Shown here: one piece after another, positions 2,031-8,670 of the stretch | How positions within the stretch are numbered: the first letter of the stretch is position 1 | Layout: every line of letters begins with the position of its first letter | NCBI GenBank assembly: GCA_016794595.1 | Contig: JAEUJN010000069.1 | Location: 1-51,021 of the forward strand | Reading direction: 5' to 3' | Source of the DNA: Kineosporiaceae bacterium | Lineage (GTDB): Bacteria > Actinomycetota > Actinomycetes > Actinomycetales > Kineosporiaceae | Length of the DNA: 51,021 bases | Notes under the pieces: generated by a model | What the model was told of the DNA's origin: nothing | The model's database searches: none | The model's input: only the letters and a program-made list of their open reading frames with translations | Position numbers and translations under genes: made by a program

Positions 2031-3637
2031 GTGCCGCGGGGGGAGGGCCAGGCCTGTGGCTCGAACCCCAGGACGATCACCGCGACGTCGTCCTCGCAGT
2101 GCTCGGCATCGCCGAGCACCAGCAGGTGGTCGGCCAGCGCCTCGGCGTCCGCTGCCAGCTCCGGCGGCAGGGAGTTCAGGGCCTCGACCAGCGACAGCAA
2201 GGCCAGGGAGAGGTCCTGCCCGCGGCGCTCGATGAGCCCGTCGCTGTACCCGATCGCCGTGGTGCCGGGCTCGAGTCCCAGCACCTGCTGGGTGTAGGTG
2301 AATCCCGGGACGGCACCGATCGGCGGGCCGCCGACGGCCGGGATCGGACAGGCCACCCGGGGCAGGTCGCCCTCACCCGGGGGTAAGGCGATCAACGGCA
2401 GGTGACCGGCGCTGGAGTGGGTGAGCAGGCCGGTGCGTGGGTCCAACTGGCCGTGCACCAGGGTGGCCAGCTCGATGTCGAGTCCCAGGTCGCCGTCCTG
2501 CATGACGTCGTTCAGCCGGCGGAGCACGCCTGCCGGGCTGGCACCGCTGGTCGCGAGCATGCGCACCAGGGCGCGCAGCCGGGTCATGGTCGCCGCCGCC
2601 TCGATCCCGTGACCGGCGACATCGCCGACCACGATCCCGATCCGCCCGCCGGGCAACGCGAAGACGTCCGACCAGTCGCCGCCGACCCTCTCCCCGGGAC
2701 CGCAGGCTCGGTACCGGGTCGCCACGACGACCGGGCCCACGCGCTGCGGCACGTAGGGCAACAAGCTGTTCTGCAGGACGGCGGCGATGCGCGCCGCCCG
2801 GTCATCGCTGCCCCGGACCTCGGCCTGGGCCAGGCGCCGCTCGGTCACATCCACCCAGTGGACGACGAGATGGCGCCGGGCACCGACGTGGTCGCCGATC
2901 GAGGCTGCGCTGACCGAGACCCAGCAGGGAGCGCCGTCCGGGCGAACGAGGCGCACCTCGACCGGGCCGGCGCACGAGAGGTCGATCCCTGGTGCCACTC
3001 GGTCGAGGCCGAGTCCCACCAGGTCGACCACCTCGATCCCCGCCAGCCGGGCCAGCGCCCGGTTGGCCATCACGATCACCGGCCGGTGGTGGAGCCGGTC
3101 ATCGACCAGGGCCATGCCGATCGGGGCGGCGTCGAACACGACCCGGAACCGCTCGGCGCCGGCGTGGAGGTCGCGCTCCAGGGCCACCAGCTGGGTCACG
3201 TCCTGCAGCGTGCCCAGGGTTTGCCGCCTCCCGGCGGGATCCACCTCGACCCGGGCCCGCACCTCCAGTACCTTCGCCGCGCCGGGCGAACCCACCCGCA
3301 CCCGCACGACCACGCCCCCAGCCCCGACCCCATGACCGGCCCCAGCCCCGGACACCCCTTCGGCGGCCTCCAGGCGGGCCAGTTCACCGCGCAGAACAGG
3401 GGCGTCGTCCGGGTGGAGCCGGCTCAGCAGGGTCTCGGTGCCGGCGGTGGCCGGCTCGGGCTCCACGCCGAGCAGCAGGAACATCTGGTCCGACCAGTCG
3501 ACCTGTCCGGTCGCCAGGTCCTGGTGCCAACTGCCCATCCGGGCGGTCCGCTGGGAGGTCGCCAGGTGCCGATCGAGCCGCGGCAGTTCCTGGATCGTCC
3601 CGGTCCCGCCCAACGCCAGGGGGTTCTGGAGTGCCAT
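2027..3637 (-). CDS. PAS-PAS-SpoIIE PP2C-type serine phosphatase
   Basis: This is a 536-residue cytoplasmic signalling phosphatase. A first PAS-like fold covers roughly residues 25-150 (MGSWHQDLATGQVDWSDQ...). A second PAS lies at about 160-270 (FRVVFDAAPIGMALVDD...). A SpoIIE/RsbU-type PP2C domain covers about 300-525. The metal-binding Asp motifs are visible as VGGDWSDVF and VVGDVAGHG, with GYSDGLIE and EDDVAVIVL near the end. Such proteins usually dephosphorylate an anti-sigma-factor antagonist in response to a ligand or redox signal sensed by PAS. No RsbW/RsbV partner is present in this window. Start ATG 3637 has a strong GGAGG six bases upstream. It is divergent from the GGDEF gene and coupled to the nitroreductase-family gene. 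Confidence 0.88.
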   Translation of the reverse strand: MALQNPLALGGTGTIQELPRLDRHLATSQRTARMGSWHQDLATGQVDWSDQMFLLLGVEPEPATAGTETLLSRLHPDDAPVLRGELARLEAAEGVSGAGAGHGVGAGGVVVRVRVGSPGAAKVLEVRARVEVDPAGRRQTLGTLQDVTQLVALERDLHAGAERFRVVFDAAPIGMALVDDRLHHRPVIVMANRALARLAGIEVVDLVGLGLDRVAPGIDLSCAGPVEVRLVRPDGAPCWVSVSAASIGDHVGARRHLVVHWVDVTERRLAQAEVRGSDDRAARIAAVLQNSLLPYVPQRVGPVVVATRYRACGPGERVGGDWSDVFALPGGRIGIVVGDVAGHGIEAAATMTRLRALVRMLATSGASPAGVLRRLNDVMQDGDLGLDIELATLVHGQLDPRTGLLTHSSAGHLPLIALPPGEGDLPRVACPIPAVGGPPIGAVPGFTYTQQVLGLEPGTTAIGYSDGLIERRGQDLSLALLSLVEALNSLPPELAADAEALADHLLVLGDAEHCEDDVAVIVLGFEPQAWPSPRGT

Positions 3638-3643
3638 GCGCAG

Positions 3644-3648
3644 CCTCC
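3644..3648 (-). promoter_or_regulatory. Ribosome binding site deciding the PAS-SpoIIE start
   Basis: GGAGG on the minus strand lies six bases before ATG 3637. The frame stays open far upstream (to 5212), so this site fixes the real start. The upstream part of the frame is antisense to the GGDEF gene. Confidence 0.75.
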
Positions 3649-3814
3649 GATGGCGGCCCCCCGGAACCACCGAGTGTCGGACATCACATCGTCGATGTAT
3701 GTGCGGAATGTAGCAGCTCATCCACCTTGCGTAATCAATGCTGCGGACTGCCCGAGCCGCGGCAGGTCGGCCGCGGGGCTTCACCGCCGGCAGCGGGCAG
3801 CCGACACCATCACC

Positions 3815-5428
3815 ATGACCGCGCGCACGTTCACCGGGGACGGCGCCGGCTCCCCGGCCGGTCCGGCGTCCGAGGTGGTCAGTGACCACGACGCCGCCCT
3901 GGTGGCTGCCTACGAGCTGCTCGAGATCACCCAGAGCACCGCCGGAGCGCCTGACCTGACCGCCCAGCTCGCCGAGGCCCGTGAACGCGGCTGGCACCAC
4001 GTGGAGTTCATCCTGCACGACTGCCGGCTGCTGGCCGCCATCGAGAGCGGGGAGGCCGTCGGCGAGGTCGTGACCAGCATGGCTGCCGCCGCCGAGGCCT
4101 CCGGGGACGGCGCGCTGGTGGCCACGGTCCACGCCGTCCGCGGCCTCTACCGGGCGCACGAGGGCATCGGCACGGAAGACCCTGACCGGGACCTGGCCCG
4201 AGCGGTGGCCATGCTGGCCGACGGCGCCGGCACCCCGTTGACCCGCCCCGGTGCCCACATCGCGTGCGGATTGGCCTACCGCCGGCTGGGCCTGTGGCAA
4301 CTCGAGGCCCTGATGTACCGGCGCGCCGAGGACGACCTCGCCCGGCCGGTCCGCGCCGAACTGGGCCGCGTCGTCCAGCTGAACCGCGCGGTGGTGACGG
4401 TCAATCACATCGAGGCGCTGACCGCCCTGGCGTGTGAGCACCTCGAGTTCGGCGATCGCGATCGTGCCCGGCGGGAACTGACGCGGACCCCCATCCCCAC
4501 CCGGCAGGCCGGGCTGCCCCCGGCCTGGATCGCCGAGTGGGTCGTGCTCGACGGCCTGCTGGCCGCCGTCCTGGGCGAACCCGAGCCACCGACCCACGCC
4601 GCCGTGGCCGCCGCCCTGGACACCATGCCCCACTCCTGGCAACGGGGGTGCCACCTGCTCGCCCGGTCCATCCGGGCACTGGACACCGACCATCGTGGTG
4701 AGGCGGCGATGATCGCCGCCGAGGCGACGAAGCTGCTCACCGTCGACGATCTGCACAGCCTGCGCACCCTGGCCCTGTCGATCGCTGCCGGCGCCTCGGG
4801 AATGCCCCCCATGGCCGAGGCCTACATCGCACTGCTGGTCGAGGAGCGCAGCATGGCTCGCGACCGGGAGCTCAACTCGGCGCTCGGCCGGCTGCGGGCC
4901 GAGGAGCTGGCGCTGGAGAACGAGCGACTCAGCGCGCAGGTCTATGTCGACAGCCTGACCGGCCTCGGCAACCGACTGGCGCTGGAGCGCCACCGCGAGG
5001 AACTGCGCGCCAACCGCACCCTGGAATCGGTGGCCGTGTTGTTGCTGGATCTCAACCGGTTCAAGCCGGTCAACGACACCTACGGCCACCGGGCGGGCGA
5101 TCAGGTCCTGCGCCGGATCGGTGACCTCCTGCGGCGCAGCTGCCGCCCGACCGATCTGGCAGTGCGTCTCGGGGGGGACGAGTTCGTGGTGGTGCTCAAC
5201 GGGTGCGACCACGACCTGGCCCGCGCCCGGGCCGAGCTGATCAGCACATCGGTGGATCAGACCGACTGGTCGGACCTGATCCCGGGTAGTCGGGTGGGGG
5301 TCAGCATCGGCACCGTGGCCGGGTCACCGTCGGACATCGACGCCTTGCTCGACCAGGCCGACAAGGACATGTACGCCCGCAAGACCGCGCTGCACCGGTC
5401 GAGGTCGCTCGACCAGCCGACACGGTGA
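3815..5428 (+). CDS. Diguanylate cyclase with N-terminal helical repeat region
   Basis: This 537-residue protein should make cyclic di-GMP from two GTP. The C-terminal GGDEF domain (about 375-530) starts with DSLTGLGNRLALERH, has LLLDLNRFKPVNDTYGH, and carries the intact catalytic signature GGDEF at 453-457. An RxxD motif (R444-D447) lies five residues before GGDEF, the position of the allosteric inhibitory site, so product feedback is expected. Residues 1-350 are helical and TPR-like, without membrane segments, followed by a short coiled coil (MARDRELNSALGRLRAEELALENERL). ATG 3815 has no strong ribosome site. The 177-bp gap to the divergent PAS-SpoIIE gene is the AT-richest stretch nearby and should hold both promoters. 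Confidence 0.88.
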   Translation: MTARTFTGDGAGSPAGPASEVVSDHDAALVAAYELLEITQSTAGAPDLTAQLAEARERGWHHVEFILHDCRLLAAIESGEAVGEVVTSMAAAAEASGDGALVATVHAVRGLYRAHEGIGTEDPDRDLARAVAMLADGAGTPLTRPGAHIACGLAYRRLGLWQLEALMYRRAEDDLARPVRAELGRVVQLNRAVVTVNHIEALTALACEHLEFGDRDRARRELTRTPIPTRQAGLPPAWIAEWVVLDGLLAAVLGEPEPPTHAAVAAALDTMPHSWQRGCHLLARSIRALDTDHRGEAAMIAAEATKLLTVDDLHSLRTLALSIAAGASGMPPMAEAYIALLVEERSMARDRELNSALGRLRAEELALENERLSAQVYVDSLTGLGNRLALERHREELRANRTLESVAVLLLDLNRFKPVNDTYGHRAGDQVLRRIGDLLRRSCRPTDLAVRLGGDEFVVVLNGCDHDLARARAELISTSVDQTDWSDLIPGSRVGVSIGTVAGSPSDIDALLDQADKDMYARKTALHRSRSLDQPTR

Positions 5429-5444
5429 GGGTCACACAGACCCG

Positions 5445-5462
5445 TATACCCCCTGGGGTATA
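5445..5462. promoter_or_regulatory. Perfect CsoR/CstR-like operator
   Basis: An 18-bp perfect inverted repeat, TATACCCC-CT-GGGGTATA, lies 43 bp before the small Cys-rich gene. ATACCCC..GGGGTAT G-tract palindromes are the operator type of the CsoR/CstR/RcnR repressor family. CstR members sense persulfide and control rhodanese and CoA-disulfide-reductase genes, exactly the gene type downstream here. The right half overlaps TATATT (5459-5464), a plausible -10 element, so bound repressor would block the promoter. No CsoR-family gene lies in the window. Confidence 0.75.
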
Positions 5463-5505
5463 TTGGATGGGACACTGACACCACCGACACCGAGGAGAAC
5501 GCCCC

Positions 5506-5622
5506 ATGTGCAGCCCCGCCGTCTGTCCCCGATGCCGCAAGATCACCTGGTCCGGGTGCGGCATGCACGTCGACCAGGTCATGGCCTCAGTCCCCGCGGA
5601 CAAGCGCTGCTCCTGCCGCTGA
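5506..5622 (+). CDS. Small cysteine-rich protein, sulfur-stress operon
   Basis: This 38-residue protein begins MCSPAVCPRCRKITWSGCG and ends DKRCSCR. It has six Cys: an N-terminal C-x4-C-x2-C group, a central WSGCGMHVDQVM and a C-terminal CSC. AGGAG at 5493-5497, eight bases before the ATG, supports expression. Its stop TGA shares one base with the start ATG of the CoA-disulfide reductase (TGATG), so the two genes are translationally coupled. Similar tiny proteins with the W.GCG.HVD.VM core occur in actinobacteria (my recollection of the pattern). A role in carrying persulfide sulfur or binding metal is inferred only from its cysteines and its partner. Confidence 0.85.
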   Translation: MCSPAVCPRCRKITWSGCGMHVDQVMASVPADKRCSCR

Positions 5623-7298
5623 TGAAGATCGTCGTCGTGGGTGGTGTCGCGGGCGGCATGAGCTTTGCCGCCCGCGCACGCCGCCTGAGCGAGTCCGCCG
5701 AGATCGTCGTCCTCGAGCGGGATCCCTATGTGTCCTATGCCAATTGCGGCCTGCCCTACCACCTGGCCGATGAGATCACCGACCGGTCGGCACTGTTGCT
5801 GCACACCCCCGCGTCACTGGCGGCAGCGCTGGCGCTGGACGTCCGCACCGGCCACGAGGTGCTCGAGGTGGACGCCGCCGCGCGCCGGGTGACGGTTCGC
5901 GAACGGGCCACCGGACGCACCTACACCGAGGACTTCGACGCCCTGGTGCTCTCCACCGGGGCCGCCGCTGTCGTGCCTCCCATCCCCGGGATCGACCACC
6001 CGGCGGTCAGGGTGTTGCGCACGGTCCCCGATGTCGACGCCCTGCGGGCCGTGGTCGACAGCGGAGCCCGACGTGCGGTCGTGGTCGGGGCCGGCTTCAT
6101 CGGCCTGGAGGTGGCCGAGGCCCTGCGGCACCGCGGGCTCGAGGTCACCCTGGTCGAACTGGCCGAGCAGGTGCTGCCCCCACTCGACCCGGAGCTGGCC
6201 GTCACCGTCCAGCGCGAACTGACACGCCATGGGGTCGACGTGCGCACGGCCACCTCGCTGGCGGGCGTGAAGGAGGGCTCCGGGGACGGCGCCTCACCGC
6301 TGACCGCCGAGCTGTCCGACGGCGCCCTGCTGCCGTGCGACCTGGTGCTGCTGGCCGTGGGCGTGCGCCCCGAGTCGTCACTGGCGCGCGCCGCGGGCCT
6401 GGACGTGAACGAGCGCGGTGCGGTGCGGGTGGACGAGCACCTGCTCACCTCGGCGCCCGGGGTCTACGCCGTCGGCGATGCCATCGAGGTGGTCGATGCG
6501 GTCACCGGCGCCCCGGCAGTGGTCCCGCTGGCCGGGCCGGCCAACCGCCAGGGACGAGCCGCGGCCAACCACCTGTTCGGCCGCCCGGGCGGGCGGATGC
6601 CCGTCCTGGGCACCGCCATCGTGCGTGCGTTCGGCGTGGTGGCCGCCACCACCGGCCGTCCGGAGAAGGCCCTGCGGGCCGCGGGGATCGCCTGTCACGC
6701 CATCCATCTGCACCCCGGTCACCACGCCGGCTACTACCCCGGCGCCCAGGCGATCCACCTGAAGCTGGTCTTCTCCCCCGACGGGGCGATCCTCGGGGCC
6801 CAGGCCACGGGGGGTGAGGGGGTGGACAAGCGCATCGACGTCATCGCCACCGCGATCCGCGCCGGGCTGACGGTACGCGACCTCGCCGAGCTCGAGCTGG
6901 CGTACGCCCCACCGTTCGGGTCGGCCAAGGACCCGGTGAACATGGCCGGTTTCGTGGCGAGCAACATCCTGGACGGCGACCTGGCCGTCTGGCACGCCGC
7001 GGATCTGGACTCGACCCCGGACGCGGTCCTGCTCGACGTCCGATCGCCGCGTGAGCACGCCCGGGGACACCTTCCGGGAGCGCTCAACATCGCGCACACC
7101 GAGCTTCGCGCCAGGCTGGACGAGGTCCCCCGGGGACGCCCGGTCCTGGTCCACTGCGCCTCGGGGTTCCGGTCCTACCTTGCCCTGAGAGTGTTGCGGC
7201 AGAACGGGTTCGACGATGTGCGTTCGCTGTCCGGGGGGATGACCACGTTGCGGGACGCCGTGCCGGGCCTGGTGGTGGAGAAGACAGAGACCCGCTGA
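5622..7298 (+). CDS. CoA-disulfide reductase-rhodanese fusion
   Basis: This 558-residue cytoplasmic flavoprotein fuses two domains. Residues 1-450 form a pyridine nucleotide-disulfide oxidoreductase with an FAD motif (VVVGGVAGGMSFAARARR), the single active-site cysteine Cys42 in SYANCGLPYHLA, and a second dinucleotide fold (VVVGAGFIGLEVAEAL). Residues 460-558 are a rhodanese domain with active Cys512 in HCASGFRS. CoADR-RHD proteins reduce CoA disulfides, CoA persulfides and polysulfides with NAD(P)H, the rhodanese handling the persulfide sulfur (established for the family). Start ATG 5622 overlaps the stop of the 38-residue gene by one base. The CsoR/CstR-like operator before that gene is the likely regulator of both. 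Confidence 0.92.
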   Translation: MKIVVVGGVAGGMSFAARARRLSESAEIVVLERDPYVSYANCGLPYHLADEITDRSALLLHTPASLAAALALDVRTGHEVLEVDAAARRVTVRERATGRTYTEDFDALVLSTGAAAVVPPIPGIDHPAVRVLRTVPDVDALRAVVDSGARRAVVVGAGFIGLEVAEALRHRGLEVTLVELAEQVLPPLDPELAVTVQRELTRHGVDVRTATSLAGVKEGSGDGASPLTAELSDGALLPCDLVLLAVGVRPESSLARAAGLDVNERGAVRVDEHLLTSAPGVYAVGDAIEVVDAVTGAPAVVPLAGPANRQGRAAANHLFGRPGGRMPVLGTAIVRAFGVVAATTGRPEKALRAAGIACHAIHLHPGHHAGYYPGAQAIHLKLVFSPDGAILGAQATGGEGVDKRIDVIATAIRAGLTVRDLAELELAYAPPFGSAKDPVNMAGFVASNILDGDLAVWHAADLDSTPDAVLLDVRSPREHARGHLPGALNIAHTELRARLDEVPRGRPVLVHCASGFRSYLALRVLRQNGFDDVRSLSGGMTTLRDAVPGLVVEKTETR

Positions 7299-7326
7299 TC
7301 GGGGGTCCGACCGTCGATCCACGAGT

Positions 7327-7358
7327 GGCGGCCGTCGCGGGGACCCGCGGTGGCCGCC
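7327..7358. terminator. Bidirectional terminator hairpin
   Basis: Outer arms GGCGGCC (7327-7333) and GGCCGCC (7352-7358) enclose inner arms CGCGG (7336-7340) and CCGCG (7345-7349). There is no T tract. It sits in the 64-bp gap between convergent genes, where it could end both transcripts. Confidence 0.55.
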
Positions 7359-7362
7359 GCTG

Positions 7363-8670
7363 TCAGTTGTCGGCCTTGCCCTCGGCGCTGCCCACGCCGT
7401 CCGCGTACTCCCAGTGCCAGGGCTCGTACGCGCCGCTGCCACCCGGACCGGCCCACTCGGGGTTGACCCAGCCGAAGTCCGTGGCGTGGGCGCGCAGCCA
7501 GGTGAAGGTCGACGTCTTGGCGACCCCGGCCCCGCCGCACAGGTCGACAGCCAGGCCCTTGCCGTGCTCGCTGGTGCCGGGCGTGGCCGCATACCCCGGG
7601 CGCAGGGACTTGATCCGATACTGCTCGGACAGGGTCCGGTACCCGTCGACGATGCAGATGTCCCGACCGAAGGCCTGCCGGTAGGCGACGTTCAGCTTGG
7701 CGAAGGAGACCGCGGCGTCGGCACGCAGCTTCTCCTGCCGGTTCCACAACGTGCACAGGGCCGACGCCGGCAGCCGGCCGTTGTCGGCGTTCAGCGCGGC
7801 AGAGGAGACCACGCCGTCGCAGCCGGGCAGGACGGCGCGTTCGGTGCCCCCACGCGCCGCGCGGGTGACCAGCACTCGCCCCGGGGCCGCCAGGGCCGAG
7901 GGCACCGAGGCCAGCCGGCTGTCGTCGACGACCAGCCGGACGACCTCCACCCCGTTCACCGGACCGGGTCCGACCTGGGGGAAGGGAGCAGCCACGGCGG
8001 CCGCAGGCGCCGCCGCCAGGGAGGCGCCGACGTTCGGGCCCAGCCTGGCCGAACCTGCCTCCAGCGGGGCGCTGAGCACCCCGGTCAACGGGGCGGCGAT
8101 GGTCGCCAGACCGAGGGCGCCGGCGATCCCGATCTGCGGGACGCTCATCGACCCCGAACCCGATCGCGGGCGGCGGGCACGCGATTCGAGCCGGCGCAGC
8201 TCCGATCGGCGCAGGTACGGGGACGCCTTGACCCCAGCGGGCGCAGCCGGCAGGTCCCGGACGACGCCCGCGGCCGCGGCCTCCTCGAGCAGCAGCGCCA
8301 GCTCGGCGGTGAAGTCGATCGACCCGGTGACCGGGGCATCGCCATCCCACCAGGGGGCCGGGCCCTGCGCCGGCACCCGTTCCAGCGCGTCGGCCACGGT
8401 GGGCGCGGGGTTCGCGAACGGGCTCGGCGGGGTGTCCACCAGGACCTGGAGGCCGTGCGGCCTGGTGTCCAGCACGCCGTCACGGAGCTGGACGCCGTCC
8501 CGGATGTCGATCGTGCGCAGCCCGGGCGGACGGGTGTCGACGACACCGGGCGGCAAACTGGTCAGCTGGTGAGGTACGAAGAGCGAGTCCGCGGGCTCTG
8601 GAGATCGATGACCCCGCCGGGTCAGCGGCGGAGCGTCGAGACAGTGCGACGGCACGGGATGGGCCTCCAC
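7363..8670 (-). CDS. VanY-like D-alanyl-D-alanine carboxypeptidase (M15)
   Basis: This 435-residue protein ends in an M15B peptidase domain (about 300-430) that should trim D-Ala from peptidoglycan stem peptides. Zinc ligands and catalytic residues are visible: DGYRTLSEQ, then SEHGKGLAVD (His369, Asp376) and EPWHWEY (Glu416, His419). A single hydrophobic segment at about 175-205 (IGIAGALGLATIAAPLTG...) follows a roughly 170-residue Pro- and charge-rich N-terminal part. This suggests a signal-anchor with the catalytic domain outside. The start is uncertain: GTG 8670 is the first in-frame start but has no ribosome site, and downstream starts are possible. It is convergent with the CoADR gene. 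Confidence 0.8.
   Translation of the reverse strand: MEAHPVPSHCLDAPPLTRRGHRSPEPADSLFVPHQLTSLPPGVVDTRPPGLRTIDIRDGVQLRDGVLDTRPHGLQVLVDTPPSPFANPAPTVADALERVPAQGPAPWWDGDAPVTGSIDFTAELALLLEEAAAAGVVRDLPAAPAGVKASPYLRRSELRRLESRARRPRSGSGSMSVPQIGIAGALGLATIAAPLTGVLSAPLEAGSARLGPNVGASLAAAPAAAVAAPFPQVGPGPVNGVEVVRLVVDDSRLASVPSALAAPGRVLVTRAARGGTERAVLPGCDGVVSSAALNADNGRLPASALCTLWNRQEKLRADAAVSFAKLNVAYRQAFGRDICIVDGYRTLSEQYRIKSLRPGYAATPGTSEHGKGLAVDLCGGAGVAKTSTFTWLRAHATDFGWVNPEWAGPGGSGAYEPWHWEYADGVGSAEGKADN

Follow-up and report, generated by a model that had tools for sequence, protein, structure and literature searches.

A six-cysteine microprotein gene between a CstR-type operator and a CoADR-rhodanese gene in a Kineosporiaceae bacterium: a probable, overlooked part of reactive-sulfur defence

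In a 51,021-nucleotide stretch of a Kineosporiaceae bacterium (contig JAEUJN010000069.1 of assembly GCA_016794595.1, called the window here at its full length), a short open reading frame rich in cysteine codons is found between an operator-like palindrome and the gene of a flavoenzyme-rhodanese fusion. The following features have been placed in the window:

5445..5462, no strand assigned: CstR-type (8-2-8) operator TATACCCC-CT-GGGGTATA, read from the sequence and conserved in many relatives
5492..5497, + strand: GAGGAG, which probably serves the small gene as ribosome-binding site, read from the sequence
5506..5622, + strand: gene of the 38-residue six-cysteine microprotein, an open reading frame with relatives in the phylum, outside Pfam and NCBIfam
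5622..7298, + strand: gene of an enzyme of 558 residues like CoADR/CoA-persulfide reductase, with a rhodanese domain; open reading frame with profile and PDB matches
5745..5747, + strand: codon of Cys42 of the flavoenzyme domain (NCGLPY motif)
7155..7157, + strand: codon of Cys512 of the rhodanese loop (CASGFRS motif)

The operon of operator, microprotein and CoADR-rhodanese gene, as described in an earlier note on this DNA, is confirmed. The small frame opens with the ATG at 5506, 43 bp after the operator, and its 38 codons give MCSPAVCPRCRKITWSGCGMHVDQVMASVPADKRCSCR; the final base of its TGA (5620-5622) is also the first base of the ATG that opens the 5622-7298 gene, so that stop and start overlap by one base. 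The same note had called the operator a perfect 18-bp palindrome. The site is real and both of its 8-base arms are perfectly complementary, but the central CT is asymmetric and the site is hence of the 8-2-8 type. Upstream, a frame with a GGDEF motif in its final part (2402-5428, + strand) ends 16 bp 5' of the operator, and a VanY-type carboxypeptidase gene (PF02557; 7363-8670, - strand) lies convergent to the operon. The explanation which we consider rather probable is that of a CstR-repressed, persulfide-released operon, whose metal-stabilised microprotein would most likely handle sulfane sulfur for rhodanese domains; its computed basis is formed by the layout of the genes, the operator and its regulon, the type of regulator, and conservation and co-occurrence.

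The 558-residue product was found to join a CoADR-like part (TIGR03385, Pyr_redox_2) to a C-terminal rhodanese domain (PF00581, residues 463-541). Its score for TIGR03385 was 426 bits against a cut-off of 578.8, and it is therefore taken as a homologue of CoADR and not as NCBI's equivalog. The best PDB match was 3nta (FAD-dependent pyridine nucleotide-disulphide oxidoreductase, 2e-162), and after 3nta and its variants came 8a56 and 3icr 'Coenzyme A-Disulfide Reductase', all of these over nearly the full length; 8a56, a 'Coenzyme A-persulfide reductase', matched residues 2-544 (2.5e-152). Both catalytic-type cysteines, Cys42 of the flavoenzyme and Cys512 of the rhodanese, are kept in their expected motifs, and the fusion proposed from the sequence stands on these profile matches and cysteines.

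The regulator had been predicted to be encoded elsewhere, and such a gene is present. In the genome to which the window belongs (G000; 123 contigs, 99.44% complete), two genes, on contigs C116 and C74, score above the cut-off of Pfam for the CsoR family. The C74 protein has Cys31 and Cys60 (numbered in its 83-residue form, 29 apart) and a serine at the copper-histidine position, and judged by these residues it is the expected CstR-type regulator. The gene caller placed the start 48 bp after a weak 8-2-8 site (three mismatches); this start is uncertain because the longest open reading frame begins upstream of the site. A scan of the genome with the 8-2-8 pattern, allowing up to three mismatches, gave ten sites, against none for the reversed pattern used as control, in keeping with the CsoR/CstR operator type assigned earlier. 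The ten sites stand at the following genes:

window operon (small gene and CoADR-rhodanese gene)
flavoprotein with a weak likeness to SQR (NCBIfam score 51.6 bits, the cut-off being 525)
cytochrome bd subunit I
SLAC1/TehA-type exporter; across the site, a helicase-like gene
class-V aminotransferase resembling SufS (112.9 bits, the cut-off being 475.1)
hemerythrin and rhodanese-TauE, flanking the site
thioredoxin; across the site, a biotin-carboxylase-like gene
small unknown gene, then a molybdopterin oxidoreductase
CstR gene itself (C74)
C60:42230-42914, rhodanese gene (lipobox-like start) followed by the gene of a small-protein paralogue (L006, L014, L017)

The weakest of these sites are those of C74 and C88, with three mismatches each. 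Most of the ten adjoin sulfur or sulfide-resistance genes, which upholds the reactive-sulfur theme of the earlier note, and among the target types of CstR regulons, rhodanese, sulfite exporter and CoAPR are present near sites and SQR weakly so. The C60 paralogue is 59% identical to the window protein, carries a C-terminal tail and begins about 110 bp past the rhodanese gene, while a zinc-type alcohol dehydrogenase gene diverges from the same site. Both small genes of this genome thus follow an 8-2-8 site and neighbour a rhodanese domain, and the place of the small-protein operon in a sulfur regulon is well supported. Further small-protein matches in the genome were seen at E 0.07 and 0.6.

The same genome also encodes a copper-type regulator, which brings in the reading of the locus as a copper operon under CsoR/RicR. 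The C116 protein is a RicR-like CsoR with the Cys-His-Cys set (137.2 bits, below the cut-off of 175), its operator is similar, and its gene is followed by those of CopZ-like and ATPase-like proteins (the latter two read by eye). At the two recognised copper loci, however, the site has one extra central base in comparison to 8-2-8: at C116:41007, before csoR-copZ, and at C76:48960, between a P-type ATPase and a multicopper oxidase. The longer pattern gave 11 matches in the genome against 12 for its control, so that only four matches (with one or two mismatches) merit attention, and at two of these (C56, C28) no copper gene was recognised alongside. Neither was a copper gene recognised when the neighbours of the ten 8-2-8 sites were inspected. 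The longer spacing fits that of Streptomyces CsoR: the copper CsoR of Streptomyces lividans, according to the part of PMC3902906 drawn on here, has the consensus ATATACCCCTNAGGGGTATAT with an N5 spacer and controls copper genes. It has the superfamily and the type 2 G-tract operator in common with the window system, whereas in the window four bases separate ATACCC from GGGTAT. In Streptomyces coelicolor, the two-cysteine CsoR-like repressor ScCsoR has the site ATACCn6GGTAT and controls a rhodanese and a sulfite transporter, as given in the excerpted text of PMC7533328, and its half-sites and spacing equal those of the window site. By comparison with these two sources in the parts cited, a type 2 G-tract operator of sulfur-type spacing precedes the window operon, and the features of a copper CsoR/RicR regulon, an N5 spacer and copper genes, were not found there. 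As far as the sites themselves can indicate, sulfur targets and the two recognised copper loci appear to be distinguished in this genome by operator spacing.

The small gene was followed across the phylum. Matches to its product were found in 54 of 396 genomes at E<=0.01 (own genome included) and in 48 at E<=1e-5, and with this many carriers the frame is taken to be a real gene. A contig scan confirmed at least 582 relatives, and 79 named loci were kept among the matches listed; by title, 76 are actinobacterial and three are not (Myxococcales, Polyangiaceae and Rubrivirga MAGs). Genes at these loci were called with a home-made caller and neighbours were clustered by Louvain grouping. An 8-2-8 site within 300 bp upstream of the small gene was present at 46/79 loci and the control pattern at 0/79. 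The mismatches of the best site were 0-3 in these 46 and 5-8 in the other 33, with none at 4; other genes had such a site in 72/408 cases nearer by and in 9/201 cases more than 2.5 kb off. At nearer-relative loci the site was upstream in 18/29 and the control in none, these 29 being a subset of 41 small-protein matches which overlaps the 396-genome set in G062, G085 and G225. Conservation of the operator in relatives, proposed earlier as a check, therefore holds for 46/79 and 18/29 loci, and in the remainder the site is absent upstream. A chance operator is rejected on the ten genome sites against none, the 46/79 upstream sites against 0/79 and the bimodal mismatches.

The commonest neighbour clusters at the 79 loci, each identified from one representative, were CstR (28 loci), rhodanese (20), CoADR (19), thioredoxin (12), DUF302 (10) and TauE (10). 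All 28 regulators of the CstR cluster have a residue other than histidine at the copper position, and the CsoR-family matches which tblastn found in 36/79 loci were nearer to the CstR than to the CsoR of the own genome in 36/36 cases. A point on the side of copper is that the longer copper-type pattern was matched upstream of 7/79 small genes; this pattern is loose and its control was as high as the count. With the spacing, the neighbour genes and the CstR-like regulators taken together, copper regulation is set aside as very improbable, being largely refuted by the sequences. Among the 33 loci whose small gene has no upstream 8-2-8 site, CstR or CoADR is encoded within the locus in 20. At least one of operator, CstR and CoADR was present at 66/79 loci, and the 13/79 where all three are absent from the stretch examined are counted against the sulfur-defence explanation. 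The 21 CoADR neighbours (from 19 loci) include 20 of at least 533 residues and 19 with an NCxLPY-type motif; the rhodanese Cys-loop, searched with our own motif, was found in 15/21, which is also counted against it.

Several loci deserve separate mention. At L071 a four-part CoADR-rhodanese-TusA-DsrE protein (6005-8530) is encoded near the small gene, CstR and thioredoxin. At L074 the small gene adjoins those of CstR and CoADR. In L029, L043, L051 and L052 a different palindrome (TTGTCCGTACAAT-like, with a varying centre) lies upstream of the small gene and perhaps serves a second regulator; in the set of 79 named loci, only L085 gave a near match to it. In L039, L042 and L049 an operator-like site (2-4 mismatches) starts 15 bp upstream and overlaps the start codon, suggesting leaderless or start-overlapping control.

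Co-occurrence of the small protein with CoADR-RHD, another check put forward earlier, was scored in 58 genomes (the own and 57 relatives); in the larger genomes the best 24 or best 115 first-look candidates were scored, so that a miss is possible. CstR was called at 69.9 bits or more, CsoR scoring 55.8 or less, and some CstR matches are partial. Full-length CoADR-RHD was present in 21 genomes, the small protein in 34 and CstR in 34, and all of the 21 CoADR-RHD genomes carry the three genes together, which bears the proposal out. Small protein and CstR were found together in 29 genomes, the small protein only in five, CstR only in five and neither in 19; the five small-protein genomes without CstR and the five of the reverse kind are counted against the explanation. 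In the own family, all three genes were found in 8/13 genomes and none of the three in five, and within one genus of the family the split was one of six. In 13/21 genomes the genes are no more than 1.1 kb apart, and they occur in three arrangements: small gene then CoADR, CoADR then small gene, and divergent. In the set of 396 genomes, the core site at no more than one mismatch was found in 30/48 genomes with the small protein and in 94/348 others (Fisher 3e-6, shared ancestry ignored; the six genomes with a small-protein E between 1e-5 and 0.01 are counted as without it), and the reversed pattern in 27/396. That only 30/48 of the small-protein genomes have the core site is counted against the explanation too. 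As the small gene has the operator type of the reactive-sulfur defence genes of its genome and tends to travel with them in relatives, the six-cysteine microprotein is probably an overlooked part of reactive-sulfur defence.

The family extends to plasmids and to another phylum. A plasmid search with the relative in L120 as query listed 40 matches of 84 records, of which 38 have no gene in PLSDB's (incomplete) table and two are entered as 'hypothetical protein'. Neighbourhoods were read in seven records. A Cnuibacter plasmid carries a CsoR-family regulator, a rhodanese, an ArsR/SmtB regulator, a cation diffusion facilitator and DUF305; a Clavibacter plasmid a regulator, a rhodanese and an FAD-dependent oxidoreductase, divergent; two R. 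qingshengii plasmids TauE with cytochrome oxidase and partly DUF302; an R. fascians plasmid TauE and DUF302; a Microbacterium plasmid a CsoR-family regulator alone, a CopY/MecI-family regulator being more distant; and a Paenarthrobacter plasmid nothing telling near the small gene. The metal-type genes in some of these neighbourhoods are counted against the sulfur explanation. In Myxococcota the family was found in 28/140 genomes. The CstR operator was absent in 10/10 Myxococcota loci checked, also a point against it, and an OsmC-like gene adjoins the small gene in 3/11 distinct Myxococcota-group loci (L101/L176 as one, L180, L124), two of the three being confirmed by Pfam. Since these members are without the operator and some stand beside an OsmC-like gene, the family is wider than its link to CstR, and the theme common to CstR-linked and Myxococcota members may be thiol redox.

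The window protein has its cysteines at positions 2, 7, 10, 18, 35 and 37, in the pattern MC-x4-C-x2-C-x-K-x-T-W-x-GCG-x-H ... C-x-C. Relatives were compared in four alignments (A1, 26 sequences; A2, the window and 76/79 loci, with L060, L091 and L130 out; A3, 38; A4, 21). Cys2, Cys7, Cys10, Cys18, Cys35, Lys12 and His21 were present in 79/79 loci, where the small genes had been located by a Cys/His motif fixing C2, C7, C10, G17-G19 and H21 beforehand; this motif was found in every locus given and none was dropped. In the wider set (n=26) Lys12 varied, and Cys2, Cys7, Cys10, Cys18, Cys35 and His21 were invariant. Non-ligand residues are also conserved: T14, G17 and G19 in 79/79 and W15 in 77/79, all within residues 14-23, which belonged to the scan pattern behind the loci, and, outside this pattern, V29 in 75/79 and P30 in 72/79. 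No family of Pfam or NCBIfam was over its cut-off for the small protein or for any of 26 members. The only Pfam family touched, that of YyzF-like proteins (PF14116), was reached by one of the 26 at E 0.053 and membership is rejected. A profile search against the PDB gave no relative, its single match (E 0.063) being taken as chance. The idea that the frame is a leader peptide only is rejected, given its conserved protein sequence and the many other gene orders in which it is found.

Exchange of cysteine and histidine is typical of metal sites. Position 37 is Cys in 67/79 loci and replaced by Gly-His in 12/79 (CxC to CxGH), and this swap points at least partly to metal binding. In the AlphaFold2 model (pLDDT 79.7, pTM 0.41) two strands (3-6 and 13-16) are followed by a helix (19-27) which begins beside the CxxH; a member with a tail, as many members have at the C-terminus, was modelled with the same core and a short helix of low confidence at the tail end. 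Foldseek and VIA-align found no solved relative of the predicted fold among zinc ribbons, treble clefs or other structures (best PDB match E 6.7, none at Z>=2). The invariant CxxC and CxxH together with the CxC/CxGH swap suggest a metal-stabilised fold plus a further cysteine set. The metal would likely sit at C7-x2-C10 and C18-x2-H21, at the helix start, and the putative second set would comprise Cys2, Cys35 and Cys37/His38.

These features could also be those of a binder of zinc or another metal, or a metallothionein-like buffer, which carries no sulfur and takes up the metal that thiolates lose under persulfide stress. On the side of this reading are seven conserved residues that could act as ligands (C2, C7, C10, C18, H21, C35, C37) within 38 positions, the exchange at position 37, the modelled strands and the helix starting beside CxxH, and one plasmid on which a cation diffusion facilitator and an ArsR/SmtB regulator are encoded close to the small gene. 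We consider it unlikely, as the conserved non-ligands (W15, T14, G17, G19, V29, P30) argue for a defined fold and not for a flexible metallothionein, and the commonest neighbours of the small gene are sulfur genes and not metal genes. A zinc-ribbon-like adapter or effector, tuning the rhodanese domain, CoADR-RHD or CstR and holding no sulfur itself, would agree with the one-base coupling of the genes in the window and their close linkage elsewhere in three arrangements, with the two unlinked rhodanese contexts of the own genome, and with the C-terminal tail of many members and its predicted end helix. This proposal is held to be quite unlikely, for a single four-ligand metal site would leave the invariant C2 and C35 unexplained. 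As a working hypothesis, a role as persulfide partner, in line with the sulfur carrier or rhodanese partner put forward in the earlier note, is placed first, before those of metal buffer and adapter.

In the preferred explanation, the C74 CstR-type repressor would bind the 8-2-8 site and silence the operon until persulfide or polysulfide modifies the CstR cysteines, which would derepress it along with the rest of the sulfur regulon. By analogy with its studied relatives, CoADR-RHD would reduce CoA persulfide to CoA and might act on CoA disulfide in the same way. The small protein would be produced in step with the enzyme as a metal-stabilised (zinc-like) microprotein, and would most likely take, hold or hand on sulfane sulfur for rhodanese domains, the sulfur being handled via Cys2, Cys35 and Cys37, outside the C7-C10-C18-H21 site. 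Repression and release, metal binding, residue roles and sulfur transfer are the steps which we infer in this scheme.

A related system is described in Enterococcus faecalis, where CstR controls the CoADR-rhodanese enzyme (coaP/CoAPR), according to the portion of PMC9405070 used here. The likeness lies in the CstR-type control of a CoADR-rhodanese and in the match of 8a56 to the window protein; the companions of CoAPR, as that portion gives them, are the rhodaneses RhdA and RhdB, whereas in the window operon the companion is the six-cysteine microprotein. In the main text of PMC9405070 there is no mention of 'small protein' or 'cysteine-rich'. The ScCsoR circuit of S. coelicolor includes a persulfide dioxygenase, and CoADR-RHD or a small protein is not mentioned in the excerpts of PMC7533328. 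A literature search of open-licence PMC articles gave no description of the small protein. The window system is a variant of the CstR/CoAPR defence against persulfide already known, and includes a conserved component which, by this search, is apparently undescribed.

Our study thus adds to a control of CoADR-rhodanese by CstR which is already known a small component which appears undescribed. Such a gene is easily missed in annotation, the plasmid matches listed being mostly without a gene entry in PLSDB's table. The unnamed, conserved microprotein, with its common operator and its co-inheritance with sulfur enzymes, is a concrete candidate for in vitro work. Cys2 becomes N-terminal if the initiator methionine is removed. 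A tentative further possibility is that the family represents a new kind of persulfide-handling microprotein in Actinomycetota, Myxococcota and plasmids, in which a domain of some 37 residues, stabilised by zinc and bearing an N-terminal cysteine, may relay the sulfane sulfur of rhodaneses, including CoADR-RHD.
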